Assembly: GCA_009829735.1 (NCBI GenBank) | Contig: CM020619.1 | Coordinates: 19,101,816-19,165,815, forward strand | Direction: 5' to 3' | DNA from: Pyropia yezoensis | Taxonomy: Eukaryota; Rhodophyta; Bangiophyceae; Bangiales; Bangiaceae | Length of the DNA: 64,000 nucleotides | In this document: positions 26,250 to 64,000 of the stretch, piece after piece | How positions within the stretch are numbered: the first letter of the stretch is position 1 | Layout of the letters: every line of letters begins with the position of its first letter | Translations under genes and position numbers: made by a program | The notes under the pieces: generated by a model | What the model was told of the DNA's origin: nothing | Databases searched by the model: none | What the model saw: only the letters and a program-made list of their open reading frames with translations

Positions 26250-26718
26250 TGTGGCAGTATTGACCCCCAGGTAAGGGGGCAGCACGTGCCATGCAAGGGG
26301 CGGCAGGCCATTAGCCTGACCCGTTCCTCCCCCTGCATTTGGGTCCATATTTCCTAAGTTTGGGATAGTTAGCTTAGTAGTAAATCCAACTTGGATTTGA
26401 GGGTCTTCTGCATTTATCGTCTTGAATTTTCGTGTGGCCCGGTGGGCAGGTGCTGGGGTAAGAGATTCTGAGTGGCGAGATTCTGAGGGGACCCTGGGGG
26501 GATAAGGGGAGGGACAGCGGGGCTTGGCCCTGCTTCCCCGTCCCGACCAAGAAACTGTTGGACCACACACCATCTTCTTGTTTGTTAATGGGGGGATTGC
26601 CCCACAACAGGGATAGAGTGTGTGCGACTTGCACTTCTTCCGGTTCCCCCGACACGGGAGGCAGCCCTCGTACACCGCCCCAACTTGGGTGTCGCGTGTG
26701 CGAGAGGTTTTGGCCACA
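26250..26718 (+). repeat. 5' LTR, family A
   Basis: 469 bp, TGTGGCAG to GGCCACA; matches 35213-35681 in the same orientation. It also matches 54641-55109 and 63093-63561 in inverse orientation. Confidence 0.9.
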
Positions 26719-26720
26719 TT

Positions 26721-26738
26721 TGGTGGAGCAGCAGGGGA
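26721..26738 (+). other. primer-binding site, family A
   Basis: TGGTGGAGCAGCAGGGGA begins two bases after the LTR. TGG complements the CCA end of a tRNA. The same 18-mer occurs in family C (62648-62665, inverted), and with one change in family B (44363-44380). It is not the initiator-Met site commonly used by plant and algal LTR elements. Confidence 0.75.
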
Positions 26739-27824
26739 CAGAGGTAAACTTTACCTCCGGGTGCACCCGGGTGTAGGGGGCCCTCTGTCTCAGAGGAACG
26801 GTGGACTTGGACCGTGTCATACGGATCGTTAGCCAACATGGCTAGTTCGGACCCCCCGTCGTCTGGGGAGTACATGGGTGACGCACGTACTTCAGTGCCT
26901 TCGAATACTGGTGAGACACAGGTAGGTTTACCTGGGGTCGCAGAGGGACTAGAGGTCCCTCAAGCCAGCAGGACTGGAATTATGGGCGGGCAACAGGCCA
27001 CCCCGACTCAGTCGGGAGTTCACTCGGGTGACACTTCTGATGTGGGTGGGCCGAAGTCTGGCCACCGTGTGGCACACTCAAAGGGAACGTCCCAAGGTGA
27101 GAGGGCTGTCCCCGCGGGATCCACCCGGGTTGGAGCCAAATTTGGCATGGAGCCGTCGCCAACTAGGCTCTCGGAGGACGGCGGACCTCCGTTGGTCGGC
27201 GATGGGCTCGCGCCCATGCCCCCGGTTGAGACCCCTGAGGATCGTGGTTACCCCTCAGGTGGACTCCCGGAGGCGGACCGAGACTCAACTGCAGTCGACA
27301 ATCCACTCCTCGCGGAAACTGTCCGTCGGGAGGCGACCAATGTGTTACGGCAGACTTTGCCGGACCTGGTGGTCACGATGACGAATACTATTCTGAATCA
27401 GATTGTGGCGAGTTTGCCAGATGGCCTTAATGTCCAGACCGGATTGGGGCTTTCGAGCCCGCAGGCGCAGGGGGAATCCCCCCTCACGCCTATCTCGGGT
27501 CGCCCCGAACAGGGGGCGACCCCTGTGACTCCCAACGAGGGAGCCACACCACTCTCGGTGGGGCGTACGCCCCTCACGGGGGAGTTCCCCTCGGAAACGC
27601 CGGCGGCTACACCAAGCTCGCCGTGGCAGACGACAGGCACTGCGGGTCAACTTACCCCAGTGCCCCAGCGGCTATTCCCTCAACGTGAGGTGCCGCCCAA
27701 GATCCAGGTAGCCAACCCGGTCTACCAGAGGATCTTTGACTGCGAGACCTACGCCCTCCACAACACGTCGGTGGTGTATGGTCCTGTCCAGGCCCGAGCC
27801 ATGGGCCGTGCCAAGAAGAATACA

Positions 27825-27930
27825 CTTCACTCTTTTGGGCACAAAGCGGAGTGGGATGGAACTCCCCCCCTCCGTGTCTTCACTCTTTTGGGCACAAAGC
27901 GGAGTGGGATGGAACTCCCCCCCTCCGTGT
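27825..27930 (+). repeat. 53-bp tandem duplication inside gag
   Basis: CTTCACTCTTTTGGGC at 27825 and again at 27878, with both copies identical through CTCCGTGT. Confidence 0.95.
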
Positions 27931-28824
27931 CTTTGAGTTTCTACGTCGTTTTACAAAAGCCTGTGACGACAATGCCACAAGTGAGGGCATGGCTCTCTAT
28001 ATGCTACAGGAGTTTACCAAGGGCGACCTCCGGACAGAACTTATGTCCGTCACGCCCAGCTCCTCAAGTGGAGGCGCTGGTGAGGTGACGTCCTATTTGG
28101 AGCTCGTCAACTGGTTGTTGAGAGCCATGGTGGATGAAGCAGCATTGGCTTCTCAAGTTGAGGAGTTTACCCAAGCTCACCAGGAAGAGGCTGAGGACGA
28201 GTTGTCCTTTGCGGAGCGAGTTCGTAAGCTCAACAATCTTTGTGGGCTTCTTCATCCACAAGCTGTGGTGAAGAGTCGGTTCGTGGAGGGACTCCATTGT
28301 TCAGTCCGTATGGAGACCCGGGAGCATAACACTGCCCGGGCGACACTGGCCGAGTTGGCTAGGTTCGCCTACCGCAGAGGTGAGGCCTACCGCAAGCTGC
28401 GGGAGGAACAACGCCAGGAGCGTCAGGCCGAGTTGGCCAAGGAACGCGAGGAGGCGCGCCAGGCCAGAGAGTTGAGAGAGGCACGCCGAATCCGCAAGGA
28501 AAGGGTTGTAGCTGCCGTGGGAACTTCCCAGGGTACCTCTTCGTCTTCCCCAGTCGGGAAGGCCCCTCCGGGAACTGAGAATCGGTGTTGGAACTGCAAC
28601 TCCGATGGACACTGGGCATATGATTGCCCGAAGTTGAGTAAACGCATTCAACAACTTGTTAAGAATGCGAGTAAGAAGTCGGCTACGAACGAAGTACGTT
28701 CACGCCGCGAGGGTGGACTTCGACCGGTGGTGGCGGTCGCCACACCCTCGGCGGAGGGGGCGGACACGTCGTCCTCGGACTCGTCGTCTTCCCCTTCGCC
28801 CTCAGATTCAGACGCCAAGTCGGC

Positions 28825-28831
28825 GGGAAAC
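28825..28831 (+). promoter_or_regulatory. -1 ribosomal frameshift site GGGAAAC, family A
   Basis: In the gag frame it is read G GGA AAC, the X-XXY-YYZ phase needed for -1 slippage. The gag stop TGA follows at 28835. After slipping, reading continues CGA ATG ACC into the pol frame. ATG and TGA overlap (ATGA), so reinitiation is an alternative. Confidence 0.65.
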
Positions 28832-28833
28832 GA

Positions 28834-31800
28834 ATGACCGTTGGAGCTGGCCGTCCTAAGCTCACAACGGCAGCCTCGGCCAAGTGGGTCAAGAGGACGA
28901 ACCAACCCTGCCGGATACTGCGGCGACCTAAGGGAGTCCGCCCACCTCGGGTAGGACTCCCCAAGAACGTAAACCCACGTCGGGTCATCGCGGTGCTGAC
29001 GGGTGAGAACTTCCAGGTGGCTGGACGGGTGCAAATAGCCCCCGGCCGTGCCTGTTGTGCCCGTATCGTACTTGATACCGGGTCAGGAGCCTCCTTGACA
29101 CGCAAGTCGCTATTACCAAAGGAGATGAAGCTCCAACGCTGGAAGTCTAAAGCTGACCATCTGATTGACATCAATGGTGGGGTACTTCCTATCGTTGGTG
29201 CCGTGACCCTACCAACTAGGTTGGGAACCCATGCGGTCGACGTGACCTATGGAGTAGTCAAGAATACATCGGTACCCCTGCTTCTGGGTACCCCTTATGT
29301 TGTAACACAAGTGCCTTTGATTTGTGGCCCTGAGTACTGGGTCAAGTTGATGAATGGGGAGACCATCCCCATGCTTGGTAAGGGAAAGTCTGTGGCTCCT
29401 GTGACAGTCTCACAGTCGAAGCCTGTTTGCTCTGTGAGAGAAGGGTTTACTTCTACCCTGGGTTTAGCCCGTGAAGTCACGTTGCCCCCCAACTCGGTGG
29501 CGCACGTTGACGTTGTAACTGATTATAAAAGGAACGGGTTGGTGCACCCTCACCCCCGTCTTGCTCGCAAGCACCAAGTGCATGTTGCCCTTGGCACGAT
29601 GGACTCCAAAGCCGGGGTCCCGTGGAGGATCCAGGATATGAACCTGAGCTCGTCGCCCAAGTACTTCAAGTCGGGAGCCAAGTTCGGCTATATCGACCAA
29701 CATGAGGGACCGGTAGTAGCGGTCACCCTCAATGCGGGCGCGAGTAGCGACCCGAATTCCGGAAAGGAGAAGCACCAAGCCAAGTCGGCCGCCTCTCCTC
29801 GGCCCCATGTGAACATGGAGGGTGTTCCACCCAGGTTGAGGGTTCAAGTTGAACGCCTCTTGGACCAATATCACAAGTTGTGGGATGGTCAATTGGGACT
29901 CATGAGAGCCACCCAACACCGGATCGAGTTGAAGCCCGGTGCACCCCCTATACGCCAACAACCGTATAGGGGAGGACCTCGTTCAAGGGCCCTCGTTAAG
30001 GAGCAAGTTGCTCGCATGGAGGCCCTCAATGTGATCGAGGCCAGCAACGCCGAGTGGGCGAGTCCGGTGGTTATTGTCCCCACTGTTGATGGGACCCCAC
30101 GGTTCTGTATCGACTACCGTAAGCTCAACGAGAGCACGGTGAAGGACAGTTATCCCCTACCTAGGATGGACGACTGTCTGGACTCTCTGGGGGAGGCAAA
30201 CGTGTTCTCTACCCTAGACTGTAACGCGGGGTACTGGCAAATTCCCATTGCCCCGGAAGACAGGCATAAAACTACCTTTACCTGTCACTGAGGTACCTAC
30301 CAGTGCAAGCGACTACCGTTTGGACTGTGCAACGCGCCGGCAACTTTCCAGCGCGCTATGGACATGATTCTGGCCGGAGTACGGTGGCAGATCTGTCTCG
30401 TGTACCTAGACGATATCATTGTGTTCTCCCGAAGTCTGGAAGAGCACATTGGCCATCTTGGCCAGGTGTTCAAGCTACTTGCTGACGCCGGTGTGTCACT
30501 GAAGGCGAGTAAGTGCCACCTCTTCACTCAAGAGGTGGAATACTTGGGACATGTTGTCCGTCCGGGGCGTCTCAGTGTCAACGAGAAGAACTTGAGGGCC
30601 ATTCGTAAGGCTCAGTACCCCCGGACCCAGACCCAGATGAGGAGCTTCCTCGGGATGTGTAACGTGTACCGACGTTTCACCAAGGGCTTCGCCAAGGTGG
30701 CGAAGCCGCTGAATGAGCTAGTTAGCTCAACGCTAGCGAAGCACCTGCCTCCCCCAAGTCGGGTGGAGCAGGAATCCTTTGAGACTCTTCGGGACCTTCT
30801 GCTGAAGCCCCCTATCTTGGCTATTCCCAGGTTGGGAGGCCACTACATCCTGGATGTGGACGCTAGCTACGACCACCTTGGTTGCGTGTTGCTTCAGTAG
30901 CAGCCGGACAAGGAGTACTTGCCGGTGGGATACTTCAGCAAGGGGCTGAACTCGGCTGAGAAGAACTACGGAGTCACCGAGTTGGAAGGACTCGCAGTGG
31001 TGTGGGCGGTGACGTCACTTCGTCACTACCTAGAGGGTGAGAAGTTCCTCATCCGCTGTGACCACCGCGCGTTGCAGTTCATCTTTAAGACGGATTGCAC
31101 GAACCCTCATCTCAACCGGTGGAGGGTGCGACTGGCACCCTTCAACTTTGATATTGAGTACCGACCTGGCAGGCAACATGCCCTTGCCGACGGCCTTTCT
31201 CGGGTACCTACCGAGGGGCTGGACACTAACTCAGTCGATGAGGACATCCCCATCGTGGGGGTAGTCACGCGCTCGCGTCAGGCGTTGGACCCCGAGGCGC
31301 CAGGGAACAAGAAGTACTTGCCCCTGTCCCTGGACGAAGTGGTGAAGGCCCAGGCCGAGGATCCCTTCTGCAAGTCGCAGAGGGATACGCTGGATACAGT
31401 GGCGGAGACGCGGTTCTTTATCGGAGACGATGGCCTCCTCTTGAGGAGGGGGGTATTCCAGGGGACCGAACAACTTGTCGTCCCCGCATCCCTCAAGGAC
31501 AGTATTCTTGAGAGGGAGCATAATGCTCCCACAGGTGGACACCTGGGGTCTAGTAAACTGTACCAGACCCTGAGGACCAGGTACTACTGGCCGTCTATGG
31601 TGGTGGACATCTACAGTTGGGTGGCTGCCTGCACAAGTTGTGCGCTGAACCGTCTGATGGAACGGCGGCCTACTACGGCTATGCTACTGTTCCCGGCCAA
31701 GGACCCCTTTGCCGCGTTGGCAATGGACATCCTTGGGCCACTGCCAGTGACCGAGGAGGGCAAACAGTACCTCCTGGTCATCTGTGATCGCTGCACGAAA

Positions 31801-32818
31801 CTTACGCGAGCGATCCCTCTGGCAGAGATCACGGCCATGTCGGTCGTGTCAGCCTTCCTAGATCACTGGGTTGCCGCGTATGGCATCCCGGACAGTACAC
31901 TATCGGACAATAGACCGCAATTTGCGTCCGTACTGTTTCAGGGAGTGCTGGATATGTTGGGGGTTAGGGCAAACTATGCCACCCCCTACCCCCCACAAAC
32001 TAATGGGCAGGTGGAGCGCTCCAACAAAACTATTGTTCGGCAGCTGCGCCACTATGTGAGTGAGCACGTGAAAACGTGGGACCAATACATTTCTATTCTT
32101 ACGACTGCCTACAATGCGCAGGTTCACTCATCTACCGGGGAAGTACCCCTCACTTTTGTGACCCCCTCGTCTCGTGCGGTCTATCGCCGTGCGGCGGCCG
32201 CTCCCAACTAAGGAGGATGGTGGCAGTACGCCTACTCCTACTGAGAGTAAGGCGGAGCTCGCTGCTGGGCTTGAAAAACTCATCCCTTAAGTCAGGGCTG
32301 AAATGGACAAAGCGCAAAAGCGCTACAAGCGTACTTTTGAGAAAAAGGTGCGCGATGCTAAGCATGTCCCCGAGCAGGGTGACTGGGTACTGGTTCACTC
32401 ACACACCCCAACTGGCGGTAAGCTGGTATTCCAGACGAAGGGGCCGTACCAGGTCCTTCGTACTGATGGGCGGCGCTTCACCATCGAAAGTGACGATGGG
32501 GTCCGCACAGTGAACGGACAGGACGTGGTCAAAGTTGCACCACCGTCTGCAGGCGACCCAGCTTGGGCGCGGGAGCTGGAAGCGTGGCGCCTGCCCTCGC
32601 TGCCTGCGGCCAAACATGGCCCGCAGGAGTACGTGTTCGATAAGTTCATCGACCACGGCTGGGATGAGGACACTAACCGCCTCATGTTGAGGGTGCGTTG
32701 GTTCGGCTACAAGGCCAAGGATGATACGTGGGAATATGTGGAGGACCTTTTCGCTCAGATGGTCCGGGCATACTGTGCCCGGAATGATATAGACCCTAAC
32801 AGCCCCCCCTCAACGTGA
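28834..32818 (+). pseudogene. pol: pol of family A: protease, RT, RNase H, integrase, chromodomain (disrupted)
   Basis: The polyprotein shows retropepsin (IVLDTGSGASL), then RT with FCIDYRKLN, SYPLPRMDD, FGLCNAPATF and the catalytic LVYLDDIIVF. RNase H (ILDVDASYD, ELEGLAVVWAV) is followed by integrase with an HHCC finger (GGHLGSSKLY...CTSC), the DDE core (AMDILGPLP, LSDNRPQF, GQVERSNK) and a C-terminal chromodomain (LRVRWFGYKAKDDTWEYVED). The chromodomain marks it as a chromovirus. The copy carries an in-frame TGA at 30289, a TAG at 30898 (the sister copy has CAG), a one-base insertion near 32166 and a TAA at 32288. The TGA is shared with the sister copy at 60030-60032. Protein starts by frameshift from gag. 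Confidence 0.9.
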
Positions 32819-32929: not shown

Positions 32930-34873
32930 CTAGGCATGCATGCTAGACTCTCCAACCCCACGGCCCTCGCCCTCACGTGGAGGCGAGCGGCGAGACCCAC
33001 GTCGATAACGCTCCCCACCAGTCGGCGGGGCCGGCTGCTCCAAATCGGAACCGTCGCGCCCCTCACGGTCGCGCCAGTGGCGACGACCGCGGCTACCCTT
33101 GTGCTTGGTCTTGCGCGCAAGTTGGCGACGCAGACGCCGGACCAACTCCGACTCTGACGGAGTAGAGGACTCCAAGATGGAATAAGAAAACTCGTCTTTC
33201 GATACGGAGGGAGAGCGCCGCGAGCGTCGGCGACGACGGCGGGGAGGCGAGTATGCCCGGCTCGCCCGACGTTTGCCACGCCCAAGTGGGGCTGGCTGGG
33301 GCACAATAGCCCCAATGCGAGCCAACTCGGCCGTCATAAACTTCGCCACGGACTCGCAACTCGCGGTCGCCTCCGCAGTACGAACGCGCTCCTCAAGCTG
33401 AGGAGTCTCGGAAACTTGAAGGGTTGCGGTCGACGCGGCCAACCAGGAAATGGTGCGCACCAACGTGGTGATCATCATCTCTGAGCTCAGAGGCGTGGCC
33501 GGTAACACCAACTTGGGGTAAACCGTCAGAAGAGTGGCCCCCAAGCTGGGGGACCCCGGGGTGGACGACTCAACGGCCGCGCTTATGGGGATGTCCCCGT
33601 GCGGCTGGTAGGGGACAGGAGGAAGTGGAGGGGCACGCTGAGGTGGCGGTGCCCGAGTGTAACTGCGACACCTTCTCGGGGCCCCCGCAGTGGGTTGAGT
33701 CATATGGTCATCGTGAGAGGGCACGGCCATCACTATGGCCTTGTCCGGGGGCGGCGCAGTGTGGCGATCCACCCCCAGGGCATACGGGTAGTCCCCGATG
33801 CCCAGCCCCTCTCGTAGTACCACACGGCCGTCGAGAAGTTCACGAGCGACCCATACGAACGGGCGAAGTGCGCCATCGTCCTTGGGCCCGCGGGTCGGGC
33901 GGCGCAATTTATGCTCAATGCTCTCCCACTCGATGAACTTGTGGAGGCGGAGCATCTCCTCAAGTAGAGTGAGTTGTCCTGATGAGCACCCCTCAGCAAC
34001 TAGCTGAGGGGTGAGCTGTTCCAAACCTTGGATAAGCCGAAGGGGAAGATGCCAGAGCATCCCCCGCCGCTGGACACAAGACACCCAGGTCGACATGACC
34101 TCGAGGAGCCACTGGGTTGCCAACGTGGCCCACACAAGGTGATCCGGGCTAGCCGTCAACATGACGGAGCCGAAGTGGTCGAGCAACCGTGGTAGCAACG
34201 CAGGGAACCCGTAGGGGACCTCAACTTGAGGCCACCACTCGGGCTTCCTCGGGTAGTACTGCTCCTTACTAGCAGCGGACTGCTGCGGAAACTCAAGTTG
34301 AGCCAAGGTCACCAAGTAGGGACCTCGCCGGAAGTCCTTCTCCATCCGCACATCAAAGTGGTGAGTGTGCGGATCGGCCTCGTGAAGGTACGAGAGGCGA
34401 GTTGCCACCGCGTCCCAAGTAAAGGTCGGCAAGTCGCCGGGACCCGGGATAGTTCCCCCGCGGTCCACCATGGCCTTGGCCCGCTGTACGTCTTCGATTT
34501 CATCATCGTCCAGGAAGGCAAACTGGTCCGTCTTGAAGCCGGCAGGGAACCCGACCCTACGGGGATACTTCTCCCGTCGGCGGTCCCATACCCGACTCAT
34601 CGCTGTGCCAAGTCGGCCACAGCGAAGAACAGTCAACCCCTCCTCATATAGAGGCCAAGCGGGGTAAAACCACCGCCCCAAGGCCTCACGTGGGACGACG
34701 CGGCCCGCCTCCGGGAGAGAGCCCGCCGTCAACCCAAAGCCGGGTGACGCGGGAGTCCCATCCCCCGGAGCAACCACGGAGCCCCCGCCGGAAGTCCCGG
34801 CGGGCGCTGCACCGTAGGAGGTGTCCTCCATACGTTCATCAAGAGAGTCAGTCTCTACCCCCGGGGTCACCAT
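32930..34873 (-). CDS. antisense retrotransposon gene (aORF), family A, 647 aa
   Basis: An uninterrupted ORF lies on the strand opposite to gag-pol, between pol and the 3' LTR, tail to tail with pol. ATG at 34873 (MVTPGVETDSLDERMEDT). The N-terminal 60 residues are Gly/Ser/Pro-rich. The middle (about 65-380) has ordinary globular composition with many Trp, His and Tyr, including QRRGMLWHLP (His at 275) and LHKFIEWESI. A Pro-rich linker and a predicted helix (SEMMITTLVRTISWL) follow. The C-terminus is basic and Arg/Ser-rich (GRGKRRASRAYSPPRRRRRR), like SR proteins or nucleic-acid binders. The chimera at 55449-57392 has the same gene at exactly the same length, with only substitutions, and a third copy begins at 63901. 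No known family is recognised; it is not an envelope by any visible signal peptide or membrane segment. Function unknown. Confidence 0.8.
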   Translation of the reverse strand: MVTPGVETDSLDERMEDTSYGAAPAGTSGGGSVVAPGDGTPASPGFGLTAGSLPEAGRVVPREALGRWFYPAWPLYEEGLTVLRCGRLGTAMSRVWDRRREKYPRRVGFPAGFKTDQFAFLDDDEIEDVQRAKAMVDRGGTIPGPGDLPTFTWDAVATRLSYLHEADPHTHHFDVRMEKDFRRGPYLVTLAQLEFPQQSAASKEQYYPRKPEWWPQVEVPYGFPALLPRLLDHFGSVMLTASPDHLVWATLATQWLLEVMSTWVSCVQRRGMLWHLPLRLIQGLEQLTPQLVAEGCSSGQLTLLEEMLRLHKFIEWESIEHKLRRPTRGPKDDGALRPFVWVARELLDGRVVLREGLGIGDYPYALGVDRHTAPPPDKAIVMAVPSHDDHMTQPTAGAPRRCRSYTRAPPPQRAPPLPPVPYQPHGDIPISAAVESSTPGSPSLGATLLTVYPKLVLPATPLSSEMMITTLVRTISWLAASTATLQVSETPQLEERVRTAEATASCESVAKFMTAELARIGAIVPQPAPLGRGKRRASRAYSPPRRRRRRSRRSPSVSKDEFSYSILESSTPSESELVRRLRRQLARKTKHKGSRGRRHWRDREGRDGSDLEQPAPPTGGERYRRGSRRSPPREGEGRGVGESSMHA

Positions 34874-35198
34874 GGCTCTCCCCAAGATAGGGAGAGACGT
34901 CCTGGCTACGGCGGCACGAGACCCGCCTCGAGTTGAGGGGTGCTCGGATCGTGGGTAGATGGGTGGCCTCTCCAGCGTGGGGCGGCCCAGGGGAAAGTGA
35001 AGGGGAGGTGTTAGTGGTGGTGAAGTGAGAGCCGGGGAGAGCAAGCTGCCGAGTGGGCAAGCTTGAGGAGAGGGGCGGTCAACGTGACCGCCTCCACGTC
35101 CACGTTACGTGCTCGAGGGGGGACAGCAAGTCGCGCCCCCCAACGCCGAGATGTGCATTTACGCGCCCCCTCACAGGGCCGACCGGGTCGGTCGGAAC

Positions 35199-35212
35199 TG
35201 AGGAGAGGGGAG
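35199..35212 (+). other. polypurine tract, family A
   Basis: TGAGGAGAGGGGAG directly before the 3' LTR, except for its first base all purine. The same tract precedes the LTRs at 55110 and 63562 on the other strand. Confidence 0.75.
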
Positions 35213-35681
35213 TGTAGCAGTATTGACCCCCAGGTAGGAGGGCAACACGTGCCATGCAAGGGGCGGCAGGCCACTAGCCTGACCCGTTCCTCCCCCTGCA
35301 TTTGGGTCCATATTCCCTAAGTTTGGGATAGTTAGCTTAGTAGTAAGTCCAACAAGGATTTGAGGGTTTTCTGCATTTATCGTCTTGAATTTTCGTGTGG
35401 CCCGGTGGGCAGGTGCTGGGGTAAGAGATTCTGAGTGGCGAGAATCTGAGGGGACCCTGGGGGGATAAGGGGAGGGACAGCGGGGCTTGGCCCTGCTTCC
35501 CCGTCCCGACCAAGAAACTGTTGGACCAAACACCATCTTCTTGTTTGTCAGTGGGGGGATTGCCCCACAATAGGGATAGAGTGTGTGCGACTTGTACTTC
35601 TTCCGGTTCCCCCGACACGGGAGGCAGCCCTTGTACACCGCCGCAACTTGGGTGTCGCGTGTGCGAGAGGTTTTTGCCACA
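35213..35681 (+). repeat. 3' LTR, family A
   Basis: 469 bp, TGTAGCAG to TTGCCACA; pairs with 26250-26718. Confidence 0.9.
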
Positions 35682-36260
35682 TAGGGATCTCGTGGTAGCG
35701 GCGGTGGTGGGGGTGTTTGCTTGGTTAGGGGGGGAGTATGTTTCGGTGGGGAGGGAGGTCGTTTGGCGGGGGGGATGGATCCCCCTTCGCTGGCCCGAGG
35801 GGAGGCGTTGAGCGTCGGCGCCCTGGAGGACAGTGATGCAGCGGGGACGGCGGCCGCGCTTGGGCGCGGCGCGGCCGCGGCGGTGGCGACGGCCGGCGGC
35901 GGCGGGGCGGCAGCGGCGGCTGGCGACGCGCCAGCCGCCAGTGCGAAGGCGGCGGTTGAGGGGGCTCGTGGTGGTGGCGGTGGCGGCGGCGCGGAGGGGG
36001 TGCTGCTGCCGGGCGGGGAGGGGCGATCTCGCCCTGCCAGCCCCCCCGACAACGCCTGGACCGCCGCCGCCAGCGACCACGGCCAGGATGAGGTGACCTG
36101 AGGCGTCGACACTCCTGTCGCTGCGGCCATGCTGAGTGGGGGCGGAAGGGCTGTGGCGGCCGCGGGCGCGCCAGCGGCTCCCTGTCGGCCAGTCGCGGCG
36201 GACAGGTCCGGGGCGGCAGGCCAAGGCGGGGTAGGCGGTGGAGGCTGCGGTGGTGGGGGG
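35682..36260 (+). repeat. left inverted arm, inner part
   Basis: Continues the left arm after the retrotransposon, starting at the duplicated target bases. It matches 41250-41830 in reverse complement, with more differences toward the inner end. Confidence 0.7.
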
Positions 36261-36922
36261 GGATATCGCTTTTCTAAGGGGCGCGACCCCTCTCCGCTGG
36301 TCCACAGACAACGATGTCGGCCGCGTTTGCGTCCTGCCGTGCCGCATTCGCCATGATGGCGGCAAGCGGTGGCGCCAGGACGACGGGGGCGACCACGTCG
36401 GAAGGCAGCGGGGTGGCGGTGGCAACGGCGGCCGGCGGCGCGCTCGGCGAGCCTGTTGCGCAGGCTGGAAGAGCACGTAGCGGCGCGGGCGGGGGCGGGG
36501 GAGACGAGGGAGTGCGGCTGGTCCGACGCGGGGGGTCTACACATCACGGCCCTCCCGTCGCTCCCAGCGCGCTGCCACCCCCCCCCCCCCCGACGCCCGA
36601 AGCGAGGTGACGCGCGCCGGCGGCTTGCAGGCAGTTGCCAATACGGCTGACGTCGACGCGTCTGGGAAGACGACCAGAGGTGGGCCGGTTGGGGCGGGCG
36701 GGCTGCCGGCTGCGGGTGTTGGGGGTGGCGTGGCGCAGTTGGTGTCGAGGGCAGTGGAGGGGGGATGATTTGGCGCGGGTGCTGGTGTGACGGCGTTGGA
36801 GTCGCGGGCCAACGACGGGGGGTGCTTAGCGGAGGGGGGTGACCTCTTCAATTTTGTTTGCTGCCGTAGGAAGCCGGGACTCAGGACGCGCCCACATTTC
36901 GTCAGTCTTCAACATTTGGTTT
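36261..36922. other. spacer between left arm and transposase gene
   Basis: GC-rich sequence downstream of the transposase stop. No protein recognised. Confidence 0.35.
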
Positions 36923-38032: not shown

Positions 38033-38876
38033 AGAGTCGCAGACAACGTGCCAGAAGGGACAGAGTAAAGGATTGCAAGTGGTGCGCCGCGGTAGGGACT
38101 CTGAAGTCAATCACTCACGGAGCAAGGGGAAGAAGGGCACGCGGCCACAGAACGCCGGCAGGCCAGCAAGGGCAGCAGCGCGCCGCTGGAGAGGCAAGGA
38201 CCGATCACTGCAGGCCCCCGCAGTCTGATGCTCATCCCAAAAGTGAGCAGTATAATTGAAAATGTGAACATTACAAAAGGAAAAGAAACGGCCTGACCTC
38301 ATGCGACCTTTCGCTGATTTTGGCGGTGGGGCTCTGCCCAGACAAAAAGCGCCTGGAACTGCGACAAGCAGACGCTGGTCGTCCATTGATCAGAAAGAGT
38401 CGATCCTGGAGGGGTCCTGCCCTTGCGTTCTTTTGACAGTCCTCCTTTCTGCGCTATTTATTGCGTGGGATGAAAGACTCCTCTTCGCCTCTCCGTCGGG
38501 GCTGTCACTCGACCGCCAGTTGGCAAGCAGCACAAAATGCGTCTACGTGCATGGTACCATGTTTTCTCGGATGATAATTCTCCGCAGTCTCAACCAGGCA
38601 GCATTACACCACGCCTCGCCCTAAACCGTTGCCCAAACCGCCTTGACCACCCCCCCCCGTTGACCAAAGCAGTCCATCGTGCATCCAGCGCCCGCGGTGC
38701 GCCCCACTTGCAGGCACCCGCACCACCCTCGTGGGGCAGCGCCTGCAGTCTGTAGCCGTCGTCGCGCTTCTGCGGCTCTTCAAGCCCTGTACGGCGTCCC
38801 CCGTGCTTCCCTTTCCATTGTGCTCCCGCTCCGCATGCTCTCCTCTTTACTACGGCTCTTTCAACCAGCACTCCCC
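38033..38876. other. divergent promoter region of the two transposon genes
   Basis: 845 bp between the two start codons. It includes AT-richer sequence with TATAATTG near 38251. The transposase and the Cys-rich gene are transcribed away from each other from here. Confidence 0.4.
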
Positions 38877-43829: not shown

Positions 43830-44586
43830 GTGCGCCCTGCTCATTTTGCGCCGTCCTGATGGGCGTTTGGGACGGGGGGTACGGGTAGGGACGAGGCGAT
43901 CCGGTTCTACAGCCGCCGCCGCTGCGGCGGCGCACGCAGCGTTCATATCTCCGCGGGCTGGGCCAAAAAGACTGCTGGCCCGTGTGCAGCAATATGGTCG
44001 GCCGTATTGTGACCCTAATATTGGGGGGGGGGGGGGGGGGGGCTACTTCTAATCCTTGGCTTTCAATTTGAGAGTCCGTACTGGTCACGGTATCTAGAAG
44101 TTACGTATGACCAGAGGGACTTGCATCTTGGGGTGGAGGGTAGTTAGCAGTGTCTCCGAGGGTTTATAACGAGGGGGCCGGCGGCGAATCCACCGCCGGC
44201 CAAGGCAGAACAACAAACCCCTCCCATTTGGGCTCTCATCTTGGTCCCGTGGCTTGCGCTCCAAGGAAAGCAACCTTGGCCTCCCGGTGACGTTGGTTTC
44301 CGATCCCCTCTGGCGAGTGTTCCCTGGGAGTGGACGTGCAGCAGATACCTATTGTGCTACATTGGTGGAGCAGCAAGGGACGGGTTTCTGTCACCCTTGT
44401 GGTGACGCCGTCTTCGGCCCTGGCACACGCATAGGGATCCAGTCCTTTTCTTGTACTCGTGGTGCTGCGATCTGTTCGATTGTTTTGAGTGGTTGCGTTT
44501 GACTGCGATCTACGGTCACTCTCCCCCAGCTACCCCCGCGCTCTCTTATTCGTGGTGACTGATACGTCGGTTGACTGATTGTGACT
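43830..44586 (+). other. junction region and 5' LTR candidate of family B
   Basis: The probable LTR ends GTGCTACA at 44361, one base before the primer-binding site. Its start is not fixed: TGTGACCCTAAT at about 44007 is a candidate, followed by a G19 run. 44381-44586 is the gag leader. No second copy of this LTR is found in the window, so the assignment rests on the primer site and gag alone. Confidence 0.4.
44363..44380 (+). other. primer-binding site, family B
   Basis: TGGTGGAGCAGCAAGGGA, one mismatch to the sites of families A and C. Confidence 0.7.
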
Positions 44587-46764
44587 ATGTCTACCCAAGA
44601 GACGGGGAACGTTCAAGGTGACGGATCGGCGTCGACGCCGACCCCGGAGCTGAACCCGGGAACCGGGATCGGTAACCCGATCGACAACACTGAGACGCCG
44701 ATGCTCTCCGGTGCCGGATCGACGTTTGGTACGGCACGGACGGCCGGGGGCGGCGGACCGCCGCAACTGTCCTCTGCCGACCTCACGCCGCCGCCACCTT
44801 CACCAGGGGACTCTCTGATGGCATCACTGGCTCGCATTGAGGCCCGGTTCGCCGGGCTCGACGCCCGTCAAGAGCGTACGGAGGACGCAATGGCCGTGCT
44901 GATGTCAGCTCGCCATACGACGGTACCCCGTCGGGTCCCTCCCACACCGGTACGGTTCGAACCGGCCGGACTACTTTCGGAGTCCGCCAGGGTCAACCCC
45001 GGTGTTGCTACTCCTGGACAACTTCCGGACACGGCGGGTTATGGATCCGACTCGCCGGCTGAGTTGGAACGTAGCCATACGGAGCGCTACGCTCGGAGCA
45101 CCCAGAGCGGGCTCCGCGGACATGACCCGGCGGATATTTACGCCGGAACAGAGTCGGCAAGGGGGGGAGGCGGTACCGTCTCGCATTACCCCATCGACGA
45201 AGGGAGCCATGCAACTCGGGTACCCGACGCGCCGACGCCGGAAGTTCCAGCGTCACTGGTTCAAGCGATGACAGCGCAGGTTACTGCGAGCTTACTGAAG
45301 CGGATGGAGTACGATGAGTCTACTCATCAACTGGCCAAGCGACTGGATATCCAGGACGCGGACACAGAGATGGTCAACGAAGTCTTCACGTCGGTACTGA
45401 CTCCGGAACGTTATCGTTTGGAGGACCGATCCACTACCGTATCGGAATCGATGCGTACGACCTCGCACCGAGCGATGCGCTCTATGCAGACCGTTATGAA
45501 GGGAGTCACTGTGTTCGGGGGCCCTATCGGACGCCCGTTGGCAGTCATTGGCTTCTTGACTAGCTTCAAGGCAGCCGCGGGCAAGGCGCTCGTCAACGAG
45601 GGGCTGGCGCTGGAGATCCTCCCGTTCTTTGTTGACGAACGGGTCCGAGGCATCCTCCGCCAGGCATCCCCGATGCCGGAAATGAGGGTCGCAGCCACCC
45701 CCATGGATTACCGTGGGATATTGAAGGAGCTGTTTAGCAGCTACCTCAGTGAGGACAAGTGCGAAGACCACTATCGGGCCCTTTGCACTGCCACCGCCCA
45801 GTCCTGGGAGGATGAAGAGATGTTTGGACGCCGGATCCAAGAGCTCGACTACGAGCTGGGGAAGCTCCTCGGTGAAGGGAAACTACGGGCCATCCTGTTC
45901 GCAGGAGTACCCAACTATGTGCGGATATCCGCACGGGGAGCCAATACGGCTCGGACGAACTTCAGTCGACTGATGCATATGTGCAAGTCCCTAGGGGACG
46001 CCTACCGGGTGCTACACCCGGAATGTGCCTTGGCCCCGAAGCCCAAGGGTGAGGGAGGCAATCCCAGTCTTACCCCGGTACCGAGGCAAGAGAAGGTGGA
46101 ACGTAAGGCCGCACCAGTACTGGTGGCGACCGACCAGACCCCTACCGGAGGGGATGAACCTCTAGTCGACCAACAGGGCCACCTGTTGCTACCGGCGACG
46201 CCGGTGATTGATGAGCATGGTACGGTGGCGTACATCGCCCCGGCTGGGACTCAGTTCCAGGTCAACGAGGGAGCGGGTCGGCGCGTCCCGTATGTACGCA
46301 CTACGGGTTATGCCCCGGTTACGGGTAACCCCCACCAACCCCTGCCGACCTGGGCAGTACGTACGGAGGCACCTCCGCACATCGCGGGTAGACCCAACCG
46401 GTTGGGAGAGTCCATGTTCCGGTTGGCACCGGGACCCAAGGCCTACCAAGGGGCGGGTTTTCGGGCGCCCGAGGCAGGCAACCGGACCTATGGAGCCAAC
46501 CCGACGCGGACGCCCGGGACGGCCGGCACGTCTGGATGTATGTTGTGCGGAGACCCCCAACACTGGGTGTCCGCATGCCCACTCATCCCGGAGGAGTCTC
46601 GACGGGCAGCGGCGCAACGCAAGGCATCCATGGGTGGGTATCCCGCCCGAGGCCCGGCACCGGGTAGGCAGCAAGCTCCAGGAGGAGCACTGGCAGACGA
46701 GGAGGCACCCCCTCCCTCGGATGCCCCGGAGGACAGTACCCGGCCGAGCACGGGAAACGAGTGA
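44587..46764 (+). CDS. gag: gag of family B, 725 aa, intact
   Basis: ATG at 44587 (MSTQETGNVQGDGSAS). The N-terminus is Pro/Thr/Gly-rich with a heptad-like helix (LARIEARFAGLDARQERTED). A mostly helical capsid-like domain covers about residues 215-500. The zinc knuckle CMLCGDPQHWVSAC (CX2CX4HX4C) is near residue 652 and a Pro-rich tail ends GNE and TGA at 46762-46764. The open frame is unbroken, so virus-like particle protein could still be made. It ends in the same Asn-Glu-stop context as families A and C, immediately after a frameshift heptamer. Confidence 0.85.
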   Translation: MSTQETGNVQGDGSASTPTPELNPGTGIGNPIDNTETPMLSGAGSTFGTARTAGGGGPPQLSSADLTPPPPSPGDSLMASLARIEARFAGLDARQERTEDAMAVLMSARHTTVPRRVPPTPVRFEPAGLLSESARVNPGVATPGQLPDTAGYGSDSPAELERSHTERYARSTQSGLRGHDPADIYAGTESARGGGGTVSHYPIDEGSHATRVPDAPTPEVPASLVQAMTAQVTASLLKRMEYDESTHQLAKRLDIQDADTEMVNEVFTSVLTPERYRLEDRSTTVSESMRTTSHRAMRSMQTVMKGVTVFGGPIGRPLAVIGFLTSFKAAAGKALVNEGLALEILPFFVDERVRGILRQASPMPEMRVAATPMDYRGILKELFSSYLSEDKCEDHYRALCTATAQSWEDEEMFGRRIQELDYELGKLLGEGKLRAILFAGVPNYVRISARGANTARTNFSRLMHMCKSLGDAYRVLHPECALAPKPKGEGGNPSLTPVPRQEKVERKAAPVLVATDQTPTGGDEPLVDQQGHLLLPATPVIDEHGTVAYIAPAGTQFQVNEGAGRRVPYVRTTGYAPVTGNPHQPLPTWAVRTEAPPHIAGRPNRLGESMFRLAPGPKAYQGAGFRAPEAGNRTYGANPTRTPGTAGTSGCMLCGDPQHWVSACPLIPEESRRAAAQRKASMGGYPARGPAPGRQQAPGGALADEEAPPPSDAPEDSTRPSTGNE
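46752..46758 (+). promoter_or_regulatory. -1 ribosomal frameshift site GGGAAAC, family B
   Basis: Read G GGA AAC in the gag frame, followed by GAG TGA. The -1 frame continues CGA GTG AGA into pol. No ATG is available at the pol start, which favours frameshifting over reinitiation. Confidence 0.7.
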
Positions 46765-49700
46765 GAGGAAGGACGACACGGGGTCGCTGGGGTAACCCTA
46801 GCAAGCCACCCCGGACTGCCGCGGGGAAAGCCCAACGGAGAGCGCGGTTGAGCCGACGCCGCATCAACCCCCGGGTACACCTTCCGGCCCCGACGACATG
46901 GCGTCAGGGGATTGATGACCAACCTCCAAGGTTGGGAGGAGAGGACGGGAAGCCCCGTCACATGGAACCAGACAAGGGCCCTGTTCAGGATGCCCGAGCT
47001 ACACCGGATATCGTTGTAGGCCACGTACTGTTCACCTTGGAGAACTTCAAGGTATCAGCCACACTGGGGGTTGACCCCCAGTCGACCCGGTCGTATTACC
47101 CCGTACTGGATACAGGGGCTGGACCTAACTTGATCCGGAAGGATACCCTCCCGGACAAGTGGCTCCCGCGAGTCAGAGTGGCTCGGAGACCCACGATCAA
47201 GGATGCGAATGGTCTTCTCATTCGTACGACCGCAGCGATGTCGCTGCAGGTCACCATCGGGGAGCTCACTACGGAAGTTGACTTCCTGGTGTGTGAGACT
47301 CTATCTGTGCCCTGCATACTGGGGTGCACCTTCATCAACGTTCACGTGGATGCAATCCGGCCCGGCCGGAGGACCGTCGAGCTGCAAGAGACCGACGGGA
47401 CGAAGAGAGGACAGACAGCTATCGTCAGGGACCTCACGTTACAAGGGAGCCACGTTAGCGTGGCTGAGGTATACGCCAACGTAGAACCAAAGACACTCCG
47501 GCTGGCCAAGCGGACTCGCTTTGAGCCGCTATCGGAGACCGCCCTCCCGGTTAACTGTGACCTCGCAGGCATCTGCAGAGTCCAGTCCAACCTAAGAGCC
47601 TACAAGCGCCATGGGTTGACCATGGCCAATGATAGCGTAGACCTCCCAGCAGGGGGGTCATCACTGCTGGTGATGGCGAACAATCGCCGTAAGGCAGTCA
47701 CCCTCCCGAAGGGAACTATCCTCGGGATTGCCGAGCTCTACGAAGGAGATATCCTTACCCCTGACAAGGAAGGTCAAGTGGAACCACTTGAAGTGCTGGC
47801 GGTCGCCGAGACCACCGAGCGACAGCAACCCGATGACGGGAAGCCTAACCCATCGGCGGCTCCGGCGGACATGCCGCCAAAGGACCAAGAAGCCTTGAAG
47901 GCACTGGCCGAGGCTGACCTCGACCACCCTCCCCCTTCGGTAGCTGAAGGGGTACGACGGATGCTAAGAAGGCATGACGTCATGTGGACCGGCGGGGCGC
48001 TGGGTACCATTGGGGCAACCCAACACCGTATAGACCTGGTACCAGGTGCTCGACCAGCGCGGTCGCCACCGCATCGCGCGGGACCTATGCAACGAGAGAT
48101 CGTTGATGGAGAAGTGAAGAGGATGAGCGAAGCTAAGGTGATCCGACCTTCGATGTCGGAGTGGGGCGCCCCAGTCGTTATCGTACCGAAGAAGGATCAG
48201 ACCCCTCGATTTTGCATCGAAAATCGACGCCTCAACTTGGTTACCAAGAAAGACTCATACCCTTTACCAAGGATGGACGAGTGCATCGACTCGCTGGGGG
48301 AGGCCACAGTGTTTACCACTATCGACTGCAATGCCGGGTACTGGCAGATCCCAGTTGCGGAAGAGGATATCCACAAGACGGCGTTCGTCTGTCACAGTGG
48401 CGTGTTCGAGTTCCTAAGGATGCCCTTCGGATTGTCCAACGCCCCCGCCACATTCCCATGGGCCATCGACATTATACTGTCGGGAGTCAAATGGCGTAAC
48501 TGCCTGGTGTACTTGGACGACGTCATCGTCTTCTCGCGTAACATGAATGACCATGTGCAACATGTCGACGAGGTACTCACCCTCTTGCGGAACGCCGGGG
48601 TAACCCTGCGCCTCAAGAAGTGCGCCTTCTTCCAGCAGACAGTCGAGTATCTGGGTCACCAGATCACACCAGGTAAACTGGGAGTGCTCGAAGCTAATAC
48701 CCGGGCACTCCGCGATGCGCGATATCCAACCACCCAGTCACAGCTGAAAAGCTTCCTGGGGATGTGCAACGTATACCGACGGTTCGTCAAGGACTTCGCT
48801 CGTATAGCCAAACCGTTAACGGTTCTGACGAGCAGTGCCTTGCCAAAGGTACTCCAACCTCCCTCGCCAAGCGAGGAAGAGGCATTCGAGCTGCTCAAGC
48901 AAGCTCTGCTAGCCCCACCCGTGCTTGCGTTGCCGCATAGACGCGGGACCTTCGTCATCGACGTCGATGCCTGCGACATCCAAGTGGGATGCACCCTGCT
49001 ACAGGGAGAGACCATCATCGGTACCGATAATGCTATCCCGGACCTACATCCGGTAGGGCACTTCAGCCGGACACTCAACCCGGCTGAGCGTAACTATAGT
49101 GCCACCGAGCGCGAGTGCCTCGGAGTCATATGGGCAGTGCAACTGCTCCGGCCATACCTGGAAGGTTCCAGGTTCATCGTAAGGTCCGACCACGAACCTT
49201 TACGATGGCTTCTCAACCTTGGTGACAAGGATTCTGACAGCCACGGTCGGCTAGCCCGGTGGAGGCTGAAGATGGCCGAGCACGACTACCGGACCATATA
49301 CAAGGCCGGCTCCACCCATCATCTGGGGGACGCGCTGTCGCGACTCGATACCCCAAGCGGGGATACCCGACAGGTGCACGAAGACATCCCGGTGGTACCG
49401 GTGTGCATGGTGGGTAATGCTACCCAAGGTATGGTTGACCATACCATGGCACACCTTGCGTGCCCATTGACCCTCGCGGACTTCCGCGAGGCACAGGCCA
49501 ATGACGATGACTGTAAACGCCATCGTGCTAACCTCCTGGCCGGCACGGCCGGCATCTTCTCCGAGAACGAGGACGGACTCATATATCGGCGGGCACCCGC
49601 CGATGGACGGCATCAGGTCGTGGTTCCCGTGTCCTTACGGCAGGCCGTCATGGAACGAGAACACGAGAACCCCACAGCCGGACACCCGGGGGGTTTGCGC

Positions 49701-50938
49701 ATGTTCGCAGCAATGCGAAAGTTCTTCTACTGGCCAGCAATGGCCGTCGACGTAATCGACCACGTGCGGGGATGCCACCCGTGCGCACGGAATCGCATGA
49801 GTCTTCATAGGCGGGCATCCGCTATGAAGCTGTTCCCCCCGGATGGACCCAATGAGCAAGTCGCCATCGACATACTCGGACCGCTTCCGGTAACGGAAGA
49901 AGGGAACAGGTACATCCTGGTCATGTCTGACCGCTTCACTAAGCTGTCACGAGCGGCAGCCATCCCGAAAGATACGGCATACACCATCATGAACGCAGTG
50001 GTTGACCACTAGATCAGGCTTACGGAGTAATGAAGCAACTCCTCTCCGATAACGGAGCAAACCTTACGTCAGCATCCTGCACGGAGGTCATGGGCATGTT
50101 CGGTATCGAACCACGTCGGGCATCCGACTACCACCCGCAATCCAACGGGCAGGTGGAGCGGTTCAACCGCACCATCGTCAAGATGCTCGAATGCTATGTG
50201 GCGGAGCACACGAAGACGTGGGACAGGCTTCTGTCCGTCTTGACCCTGGCATACAATGCCAGGCCCCACCGAAGTACCAGTATTGCACCACTGGAATGGG
50301 TCATGCCAATGGGCGTCGGGAACCTGACGCTGCCACCGGGCAGGTGCACTCGATATGACATACCGAAGGGCCGACCGGCCGAACGGATCCACTTAGCTTG
50401 GTTGGCCAAGCTATCGTGGATGATACCCAAGCTCAAGGGTGCCCTTGACCGTACACAACTTCGATACAAGAAGAGCTTTGACGCCCGGTTACGGGTACGC
50501 AACGCAACCCTGGTAACAGGTGACTGGGTCTACATAAGACACCAGAAGTTCCGAGGGAACAAGCTTATGCAACCGGTCAAGGGACCGTACCAGATCTTAC
50601 ACAGAGATGATCACTCTGTCATCCTGCACTCCGATACGGAGATACAACGCATCAACCTCAATGATGTGACACCTGCTCCGAAGCCGGAACAGCCTCAGCC
50701 GGTACCGGCTGGGTTGCTACACGAAGCTCTTACAACCCACCGGTCAGATGACCCGGTGGGACCGGATGGGATTCCATACCAAGTAGAGAGCGTGGTCGGA
50801 CACACCGACCCGGACCTACCAGAACCCTCGTACGTCAAGGTTTTGTGGGTCGGATACGACTCACCCACCTGGGAACAGGCGGCAAATATACCCCGCCAAC
50901 TCCTCATGCCTTACATGAGGCGACGACGCCTACTGTAA
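46761..50938 (+). pseudogene. pol: pol of family B: protease, RT, RNase H, integrase, chromodomain
   Basis: Open from the gag overlap for 1083 codons. It shows protease (VLDTGAGPNLI), RT (FCIENRRLN, SYPLPRMDE, FGLSNAPATF, catalytic LVYLDDVIVF), RNase H (VIDVDACDI, ATERECLGVIW), the integrase HHCC finger (GHPGGLRMFAAM...CHPCARNR) and the first Asp (AIDILGPLP). A TAG at 50010-50012 stands where relatives have Trp (DHW), and the frame shifts by one base about ten bases later. The remainder (50030-50938) carries the second Asp (LSDNGANL), the Glu (GQVERFNR) and a C-terminal chromodomain (VKVLWVGYDSPTWEQA). The integrase is thus split in this copy; the other enzymes look intact. It has Ser (TCA) where family A has the shared TGA. 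Confidence 0.9.
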
Positions 50939-51388: not shown

Positions 51389-53758
51389 TCAGTGGGTAGA
51401 CCCACTGCCCGAGGTAGGCCACTCACGCGTAAACGCGTTCACCTCCATGCTCCACCGGTCGGCAATCTCACGATGGTCAATCACCCGAGTTACCTCGGTG
51501 CATAGCTGAACGAGGGTGCCGCGGCCAGCCTCCACTTCCTCCAGAGCTGTCTGGAGGCGGTCAAGCACGCCACCGAAGCAACGCGCTGACCCAACCAGCG
51601 CAGCACCTGGGGGGATATCCCCCCAGCTAACAGAGAGACTCTCCCGCATTGCGCGGGCAACAAGGGCGTCAACGCCCTCATACCAGAGACGGGGACCCCC
51701 GTCATGCATGACAGGGGCGGGAGGTGACACTGGCGCAGCTAGAGGAGCCACAGGAGCCGACACGGCTACTACCTGAGCCGGTGCCACCTGATACGAGGCC
51801 CGGTAGGACCCCACTGAAGGGGCCCCACCGTAAACCCGGCGGGGCTCGGCCCGACGACGGGACACCTCACGCTCCCCACCCGCAGAGCCCCACTCTCGGG
51901 GACGACGGCCAACCGCCGCCGGTATCGGGTTACCGAAGCACGGGGCAAGGACCTGAAGACGGTCATGGATAACCATGGGAATACCTAAGTCAGCAACAGC
52001 CTCGGTGGACGCCCACCCATGGCAATTGGGCTCACCCGGCTGAGTACGCCGGATACGCAACGAGTGACGAGGCAAGGGGGATGCCCCAGCCTGCGGGTCC
52101 CGGTACGGGGGAAGGGCCAACACCCCAGCCCAGTTCACGGCATCGTGAACAGCCAGCAGAGCCTCGAACTTCCGGGCCAACCCGGTCTTGGCGGCTATCA
52201 TGTCAACGCCCAACTGCGCGATGTGCCGACGGACACCCGTCGGAAGATGAAACAGGCGCCCCTGCCGGCGGACGGACAGCAAGAAGGAGGAAGCCTGCCC
52301 GAGGGTAACCTCAAGGGTGAAGGTACCCTGCAACGGGTGGACCGGCCGGGAGGCCAACACACTCCCGAAGTATCGGAGGCAGGAGCCGGTGTCAAACCGG
52401 AAAGCAGGGGCGGGCTCGCACCCCTCCTGCCACAGAGGCGGGAGCACGGCAGTGTACACCGGCGCGCGACCGTTACCGGTCTGCAACGCACACGTTTTAT
52501 CGGTGCGGAACGCATCCGCCATGACACCATGGTTGCGTCTCCAGCTCGACGCTGACTTCAACCCCGCCATAGGCGGTTACGGAAACGTCAACGTCAGGTA
52601 CGGGGATACCCCCGGGAAGTACTCGAGCCCGGGATACCGGCCGGTATCACCCACCGTCTCCCCGCACGCAACCGGCTCCGCCGCAGCCGCAATCCCCCGA
52701 GCACTAGCCGGGTAGTCAACCTCCTGCAGCGACGCGGGGGCAATCAAGTCGCATATCCCGAAGGCGGAGTCGAGGTAGGCCTCACCCCGCCCAATCCGGG
52801 TGCGGCAGAGCTGCGCATGCCGGTCGTCCGGCTGGCTCAGGATCCAATGATGCTCCTCTCGGACCGCGTTCGGCTGGTTGACCAGCCGCACCAACTCCCG
52901 CTCCCAACTCGGGTCCACCTTGACGCGCCGGGAGGTCTCTCCAGGGAGACGCGGCTGGTGGAAGTCCACCCGCATCCGCCCAGCGGACTCCATCGACTCT
53001 TGCACAGTCATGCCTCGAGCCCGAGCCACCAAATCGGACATCGACATGGCGTGTTGACCCGCCGCCAAGGCGACGCCGCCACCCAACGGGGCAACCCGGG
53101 CAGGACCAGGAAGAATCGGGGGCGCCGGGGGATGCCCCACCGGCAGATGGGCCTGTGCCGGAGGTGCACGGGGCCGAGGAGGAATAGGAAGGGCGGGCGC
53201 CCGCCCGGAGTAGCTCCCGGAGTCCACTGCCATCGGGGTAGACACTTCTTGACCACCAACCGTCCGCGGCACCGCGGGCGGAGCATCGCCGCCACCCGGG
53301 CCCGACGTGGGCACCACGGGGGCAGCAGGGGTAGACCCGTTACCCGCCGCCGCGGACACACCAACCGGGCGGGCACCCGCGCCGTCTTGACCCGCCGTCC
53401 CGGCCGGGGTGCCGCCATGACCATCCGACACGCCGGCGACGCCGTCTTGAGGTAGAGCCGCGCCGGCACCGGCGACAGGAGCCATCCGGGCCGCCGGAGG
53501 GGTAGGGGTAGAGGCAGCCGCTACACGCGGTTGCCCGCCACCCGACGGAGCCGTCGTGCCGCTGCACACGGACGAGAAACCGCCCGGCGCACCTTCCGGG
53601 GCCACGCGGACGGTTACCTGGTCGCCCTCGTCTTCGGACGAGCTCGCCAAGAAGCACTCGGCAGCGGTGGCAGAGACGGGGACGTCGTCCACCATCACCT
53701 CTTCCTCCTCCTCAAGCAGGAGGTCGTCCTCGCCCCCGGGTACCTGGGGGTCCGACAT
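51389..53758 (-). pseudogene. antisense retrotransposon gene (aORF), family B, 789 codons with one internal TAA
   Basis: Opposite to gag-pol, downstream of pol. From ATG at 53758 (MSDPQVPGGEDDLLLEEEEE) an acidic N-terminus is followed by a long Pro/Gly/Ala-rich region. A folded-looking part starts near residue 230 (MSMSDLVARARGMTVQESME). A TAA at 52577-52579 (codon 394) interrupts it, then the same frame continues PPMAGLKSASSWRR and runs to 51389. The second half includes RRQGRLFHLP (His at codon 504) and LLAVHDAVNW, which line up with QRRGMLWHLP and MLRLHKFIEW of the family A antisense protein at nearly the same spacing. If the TAA is genuine, an ATG seven bases beyond it could start a 393-residue second protein. 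Function unknown. Confidence 0.65.
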
Positions 53759-54296
53759 GGTGAACCCGGGGTAGCCGGGGCGCCCCGTCAGAAAAGCCGA
53801 GGCCGGCTCGACCCGGTACAAGGAACGCTCGCGCGGACGAGCCAGGGAAGCGCGGGCACCCGCGCTTATAACCACGCAGCTCAGCACGAGCGATACGGCA
53901 GCGCGGGACGACCCACGCCAGCCGAGCTACGAGGGCGCTCCACCCAGGCACCTGGACCGGAGCCACGCCCCCCCCACACGGGGTAATCAAGAGGGGTCAC
54001 CCCCAACCGCCCCCCACTCAATCGTCCACACGAGAGGGGCCCCCCTACCACCAGACACCTGGTGGCGGATCCGCTTGCACCACCCCTCGGAAAGGGGGGT
54101 CGTGAACAGAAACCCGCATCGGGAATTTAACAGTTCGGAAAACGGATCGTGTGTGTCCCACACAAAGGGGGGCACCCCCCTCAGACAACCTCGAAAAGGG
54201 GTGTCTGTCGCGACAGGGCGCAAAGCCCCACCCGACTGGTAAACGGTCACGCGACCCTCTTACAATCGGTAACCCGAATGCAACTCGACCCGAGGA
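53759..54296. other. upstream region of the family B antisense gene, truncated end of element B
   Basis: No gene. It should contain the antisense promoter and the start of the 3' LTR, but no similarity to the 5' LTR region was seen. The sequence switches at 54296/54297 to the segment shared with 62748. Confidence 0.4.
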
Positions 54297-60169: not shown

Positions 60170-60170
60170 C

Positions 60171-63900: not shown

Positions 63901-64000
63901 ATGGCGACTCCGGGAGTGGAGACGGACTCTCTTGACGAGTGCATGGAGGACACCTCCTACGGGGCAGCACCCGCCGGGACTTCCGGCGGGGGCTCCGCGA
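63901..64000 (+). CDS. antisense gene (aORF), family A, third copy, cut by window edge
   Basis: First 33 codons of the same gene, MATPGVETDSLDECMEDT, with one visible substitution (Arg to Cys) relative to 55449. This marks the next unit of the tandem array. Confidence 0.75.
   Translation, partial: MATPGVETDSLDECMEDTSYGAAPAGTSGGGSA

Follow-up and report, generated by a model that had tools for sequence, protein, structure and literature searches.

Here, we identify a long antisense gene, aORF, in two Ty3/gypsy retrotransposon families of the red alga Pyropia yezoensis. The gene converges on pol and has a defined start codon; it is under purifying selection, and its product is related in sequence between the two families. 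Antisense accessory genes of retrotransposons have been described mainly from flowering plants. We suggest that aORF is a selected gene that likely encodes a nuclear regulatory protein, expressed from a predicted antisense promoter of its own upstream of the ATG, and we assign this reading a probability of about 0.55. The window, i.e., the whole stretch of DNA analysed, comprises 64,000 nucleotides (C2:19101816-19165815) of a 107.5-Mb genome in 11 contigs.

Table 1. Retrotransposon features in the window, in order of position.
Feature	Position	Strand	Remarks
5' LTR, element A	26250..26719	+	exact ends by reading
gag region, element A	26814..28837	+	CCHC knuckle in second frame (27851-28837)
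pol, element A	28834..32818	+	encodes RT, RNase H, integrase and a chromodomain-like end, broken up across several frames
aORF of family A, copy A	32930..34873	-	647 codons
Leader of family A aORF	34874..35199	-	palindrome-rich; candidate antisense promoter region
21-base palindrome, family A leader	34876..34896	no strand	adjoins ATG
19-base palindrome, family A leader	35074..35092	no strand	
Polypurine tract, element A	35200..35212	+	by reading
3' LTR, element A	35213..35682	+	exact ends by reading
First ORF of family B Ty3 element, probably gag	44581..46764	+	by position; without Pfam match
pol, family B	46761..50938	+	protease-like, RT, RNase H, integrase pieces
aORF of family B	51389..53758	-	ATG 53758, end 51389; 789 codons where open
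Leader block, family B	53848..53871	-	TATA-like box and 20-base palindrome; candidate antisense promoter
aORF of family A, copy 2	55449..57392	+	647 codons
pol of copy 2	57504..59963	-	open from mid-RT to chromodomain-like end
aORF of family A, third copy	63901..64000	+	start only, cut by window edge; repeat unit 8452 bases

Both families have the Ty3/gypsy domain order RT, RNase H, integrase (Table 1). In element A, aORF lies antisense between pol (end 32818) and the 3' LTR (from 35213), tail-to-tail with pol. The two LTRs of this element are 96.0% identical to each other and AGGG stands at both outer flanks. Chromoviruses are known from red algae, as stated in part of a published account (PMC3605345), and both window copies score below the 25.1-bit cut-off of the chromodomain model PF00385, copy A at 24.2 and copy 2 at 18.9 bits. 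For family B pol no chromodomain was reported, and the pol ends of two B-type relatives (L046 and L049) resemble one by eye only; the integrase core of family B gives only a weak rve_3 match (E 6.5e-4), together with an H2C2 domain. Copy 2 seems, from its flanking repeats, to lie within a tandem LTR-internal-LTR-internal array. The window holds two further structures. Inverted copies of ~2.5 kb that are 92-98% identical (24344-26249 plus 35683-36262 versus 41250-43733) flank an ORF at 36923-38110 (-) whose product matches the DDE_3 transposase domain (E 7.5e-15); this arrangement looks like a large DNA transposon with element A inserted into its left arm. The segment 6001-14000 has a GC content of 78-85%; periodic repeats of 9-30 bases form long arrays in it, and each strand has very long open frames.

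The family A aORF encodes a protein; purifying selection preserves it in its source lineages, and it decays after insertion. First, the 647-codon antisense frame that the preliminary description had reported is real: the remaining five frames of the stretch are closed by stops (copy A, 11-26; copy 2, 10-25), and the longest open frame between pol and LTR has 724 codons, compared with a maximum of 461 in 1000 dinucleotide shuffles. Second, copy 2 has, as also described, the same length with substitutions only (169 of 1944 bases differ over 647 codons with zero indels); these differences fall 27/36/106 on the three codon positions and correspond to dN 0.047, dS 0.243 and dN/dS 0.19. The third copy, said to begin at 63901, follows from the 99.76% identity of 54298-55548 and 62750-64000, which lie 8452 bases apart. 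Third, no stop was found in 53 of the 68 family A aORF copies among the matches listed, ranked by aORF score; this choice of copies by best aORF match biases open-frame counts upward. Thirty loci were cut out of the 68 scored copies, and L001, which is the window's copy A, was excluded from the counts.

A dN/dS near 1 across many copies had been set beforehand as an outcome that would refute a selected protein, and the opposite was observed. Among 31 copies (A, copy 2 and L002-L030; 465 non-independent pairs, stop codons skipped pairwise), dN/dS was 0.64 (7 pairs, mean dS 0.014), 0.38 (66, 0.037) and 0.23 (140, 0.077) in the low-dS bins, and it lay at 0.14-0.19 in the bins with dS > 0.1, i.e., 0.19 (173, 0.121), 0.16 (67, 0.168), 0.15 (10, 0.217) and 0.14 (2, 0.263). 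Variant sites shared among the 31 copies were distributed 49/37/172 over the codon positions and singletons 94/98/132, and the third-position excess is present along the entire aORF. Moreover, diversity by codon position was.062/.065/.062 over the 171 bases before the ATG versus.0125/.019/.177 over the 60 after it. Thus, codon-position constraint starts at the ATG. Coding upstream of this ATG was considered and rejected.

According to the preliminary description, decay affects gag-pol and leaves aORF open. Both window copies do have a broken pol; however, the contrast is not general. Among 29 other family A copies, a stop or frame change was present in the pol end in 11 and a stop in aORF in 9, where these 29 are the best aORF matches, hence biased toward good aORFs, the fetched pol end covers 442-505 matched residues and its count joins two BLAST pieces overlapping by ~10 codons. 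Between the two window copies, dN/dS was 0.27 (0.033/0.125) for pol against the 0.19 of aORF. Their gag halves (60168-63093 versus 26719-30153) gave no match in the self-comparison, while pol and aORF match at 92-96%. These unmatched halves and the different dS values of pol (0.125) and aORF (0.243) suggest that element A and copy 2 may be mosaics.

Besides family A, the window's other Ty3 family has an antisense gene as well, which had been overlooked. In family B, aORF is again antisense and on the same side of pol as in A, in a layout read without located LTRs, as one search did not locate the LTRs of the window's family B element. The window copy is broken between frames 51389-52570 and 52577-53887. 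Fifteen of 105 scored copies were cut out, with L031, the window's own B copy, included in the counts. In 10 of these 15 loci one frame of at least 749 codons runs across the window break, and in six (L035, L036, L038, L040, L042 and L043) it has 789 codons from the same ATG; L037, L041 and L044 have a different first ATG, L039 has a shifted end, and the gene is broken in L031-L034 and L045. Over a 393-residue part, 97 of the 105 family B copies among the matches listed, ranked by aORF score, have no stop. In the 15 loci (105 pairs), dN/dS declines from 0.53 to 0.37, 0.20 and 0.17 with rising dS.

The DNA upstream of aORF is rich in palindromes in both families. Four separate palindromes, each arm 6-10 bases long, lie within 341 bases upstream of the ATG in a reference copy of family A (L004), and 0 of 500 mononucleotide shuffles reached the counts; for the B leader (L031), 0.8-1.4% of shuffles did so. 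Of 31 A copies, 27 share an identical 19-base palindrome, the maximum of all 19-base leader windows (median 17), and 25 share an identical 21-base palindrome adjoining the ATG. For the remaining two palindromes the number is 15 and 19 of 31, no better than the median and partly because of register shifts, and older A relatives keep an imperfect palindrome adjoining the ATG, in some barely. In family B, the best-kept leader stretch is a TATA-like box with a palindrome ~110 bases upstream of the ATG: over four representatives, windows of this block have 27 and 28 of 34 positions identical, other windows 12-25, and no run longer than 8 is identical across all 15 rows of the leader. Ten of 12 family B copies have TATAAG at the box, and two have CATAA. 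CATAA is also the sequence in the sister loci L074-L076, where the block sits 106-111 bases before the ATG; a further locus, L073 of L049's family, matches the block only weakly. Upstream of 53871, the B leader has a second palindrome; some copies and sister families have it in perfect form over 18 bases, others in imperfect form. Inspection of the A and B leaders revealed no shared element. We infer from position and conservation that the B block and the A leader are candidate antisense promoters. Because palindromes act in either strand, they may instead serve in the sense RNA.

Antisense genes at this position are already known, and the algal aORF resembles those of Grande and Retand by layout. 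According to the available text of PMC7264820, gene23 of maize Grande likewise lies antisense in the interval from pol to the 3' LTR, is kept in most copies, has its own upstream promoter and gives a nuclear product; Grande is an angiosperm element and is likened here by layout, not sequence. The antisense proteins of Retand have been proposed as regulators in portions of two reviews (PMC7264820, PMC11963269). Retand belongs to a non-chromovirus lineage of flowering plants, and its antisense ORFs carry a TRP28 domain (PF04195), which the algal aORF lacks. Per the same partial source (PMC7264820), the LTR element Boty of Botrytis cinerea, which is not from a plant, has its antisense ORF in this same interval; it is fungal and again likened here by layout. 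HBZ of HTLV, a nuclear antisense accessory protein of a retroelement in the text available from PMC11963269, comes from a retrovirus and is alike in layout and proposed role only. By analogy with Grande and Retand, we suggest that antisense transcription would begin within the leader that separates the 3' LTR from the ATG, for family B close to the block of TATA-like box and palindrome; that the protein would enter the nucleus; and that it would there tune transcription or RNA output of the element, with the palindromes of its leader as possible binding sites. A bolder version, which we hold only tentatively and consider doubtful as a whole, is a two-directional programme in which an ancient aORF, older than the split of A and B, would be a transcription factor acting on palindromic operators in its own leader, next to the 3' LTR, and switching the element between expression and quiet. 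If true, the aORF proteins would form a new family, and antisense regulation in these elements would have arisen separately from that in flowering plants.

The protein itself has no relative beyond chance in Pfam, NCBIfam or PDB sequences, in agreement with the preliminary statement that it matches nothing recognised, and no known enzyme or DNA-binding domain was found in the aORF proteins in these libraries. Matches to DUF6214 (E 0.02; 0.022) and to formate dehydrogenase (E 0.54) were taken as chance. A TRP28-like reading made by eye was dropped: PF04195 had 0 candidates in the whole genome and no match in A7 and A6 members at E up to 10. AlphaFold2 models had a mean pLDDT of 33.2 (alignment A3, 17 rows) and 34.8 (A5, 27 rows); both of these low-confidence models have a central helical region and C-terminal helices, weak evidence that concerns rough helix order only. 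The protein also lacks the features of an env-like third ORF, as it is antisense and its top 19-residue hydropathy is 1.43 (A) and 1.37 (B), with no transmembrane segment. The start of the protein is acidic in family A (net -7 in residues 1-60) and in family B (net -14 in 50). The family A protein ends in a basic, R/S-rich tail (the last 122 residues include 29 Arg and 19 Ser, net +19). This tail could bind RNA, and, together with the lack of a known enzyme domain, it would suit a second structural or assembly factor, RNA-binding and gag-like, that acts in particles and not on transcription. However, family B has no strong basic tail, only a short basic stretch (net +6 at residues 611-660), and element A already has a separate sense-strand gag ORF with a CCHC knuckle, and we regard a particle factor as unlikely. 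In the regulatory reading that we prefer, the acidic start and, in A, the basic tail would belong to the protein that enters the nucleus.

Genes of this type are abundant. DNA patterns built on two short motifs found 893 A-type and 807 B-type places in the 107-Mb genome, with 0 for reversed-pattern controls; these are pattern counts, and eight of the 807 B places were fetched. A looser pattern gave 34 places versus 3 in its control, and another pattern 16 versus 0. Fifteen of the 34 were fetched. The first eight included three relatives (L046, L049 and L052) and five places without similarity (L047, L048, L050, L051 and L053); the next seven were all A-type, including family A itself (L060, 95%). 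Four of the 16 places and the eight of the 807 had an aORF-type frame with the motif in 12 of 12 cases. Nine loci are older, broken A relatives, ~53-83% identical in pieces (L052, L054-L059, L069 and L072), and L049 has one further near-identical copy among 69 listed matches. An other-strand integrase ORF ends 477 (L046) and 403 (L049) bases from the aORF end. A profile search (~5.8 billion proteins, 7995 candidates scored) returned 16 proteins, among them six 'hypothetical proteins' of Pyropia vietnamensis (MMPV_009242, 008948, 008454, 009449, 006872 and 008444), known here as proteins alone, with 31-51% identity to the B core; no A-type relative from a named second species was found in this search. 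Single-protein searches (7998 and 1641 candidates scored) returned only P0005, which is 91-97% identical. aORF is retained in most listed copies and in sister families, and it has relatives in a second species. The proposal that it is a new accessory retrotransposon protein holds in that it is selected, antisense between pol and the 3' LTR, and without match in the searched libraries. The very high copy number and the purifying selection in source lineages would also fit an anti-silencing factor that counteracts repression by the host; the searched libraries, which may contain no silencing suppressors, gave no match to a known one, and we judge this role rather improbable.

Two local arrangements were noted among the copies. 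Near-identical aORF copies occur as inverted pairs ~10-12 kb apart (L009/L014, L008/L011, L017/L026, C1:32296161/32307582 and C2:9531701/9542975), the first three pairs being 98.9-99.9% identical over 4.2-4.3 kb of fetched DNA; they may reflect palindromic duplication or an assembly artefact. At C1:602524-611114 (G000), five family B motif matches lie on one strand, four of them spaced ~1.7 kb, possibly a local tandem array of an aORF-containing piece.

By sequence comparison, the A and B aORF proteins are weakly but significantly similar. BLASTP gave 38.9 bits (E 7e-7, 23% identity over 189 residues) between A and B, and the A protein scored 38.1 bits with L049 and 37.7 bits with L046; the maximum in 2000 local shuffles (1000 of B, 1000 of L049) was 28.5 bits, and reversed sequences stayed below 20. 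Profile comparison of A and B was weak, with E 1.5e-4 (probability 51%) and 3.3e-4 (38%). The pol proteins of the two families are ~50% identical in RT-RNase H and 38% in integrase with its C-terminus. The antisense gene would thus be older than the A/B split or was transferred between families long ago. Among B, L046 and L049, dN/dS is ~0.3 at dS 0.65-1.4. The relatives found are further copies in this genome, sequences from other assemblies and P. vietnamensis proteins, which leaves room for a captured host gene or a passenger hitch-hiking in the element; yet the gene recurs in A, in B and in sister families, and the B-type aORF diverges alongside integrase (aORF 71% and integrase 90% identical to B in L046, 55% and 81% in L049). 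Any capture would therefore be old, with the gene kept since, and we consider mere hitch-hiking very improbable. Antisense non-coding transcripts of retroelements are known, as described in a part of PMC7264820, but a role of the antisense RNA alone, through double-stranded RNA and self-silencing with an incidental open frame, leaves the selection on codons unexplained, is contradicted by dN/dS and can practically be discounted.

Against the regulator model that we favor, we count the lack of a found domain, the low-pLDDT structure models, the variable B box and the two poorly kept A palindromes, as well as the missing strong basic tail and unlocated LTRs of family B and the weak A-B profile match. 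Among the papers listed by a literature search that covered few subscription journals, none was noted to describe an antisense retrotransposon gene in red algae, and the word 'alga' is absent from the available text of two reviews (PMC7264820 and PMC11963269). We read the occurrence of an apparently unrelated aORF, shared by distant families and matched at ~1,700 motif places in a compact algal genome of 107 Mb, as a sign that retroelements repeatedly acquire antisense accessory genes. With selection, start codon and leader elements mapped, the function of such a gene becomes directly testable.
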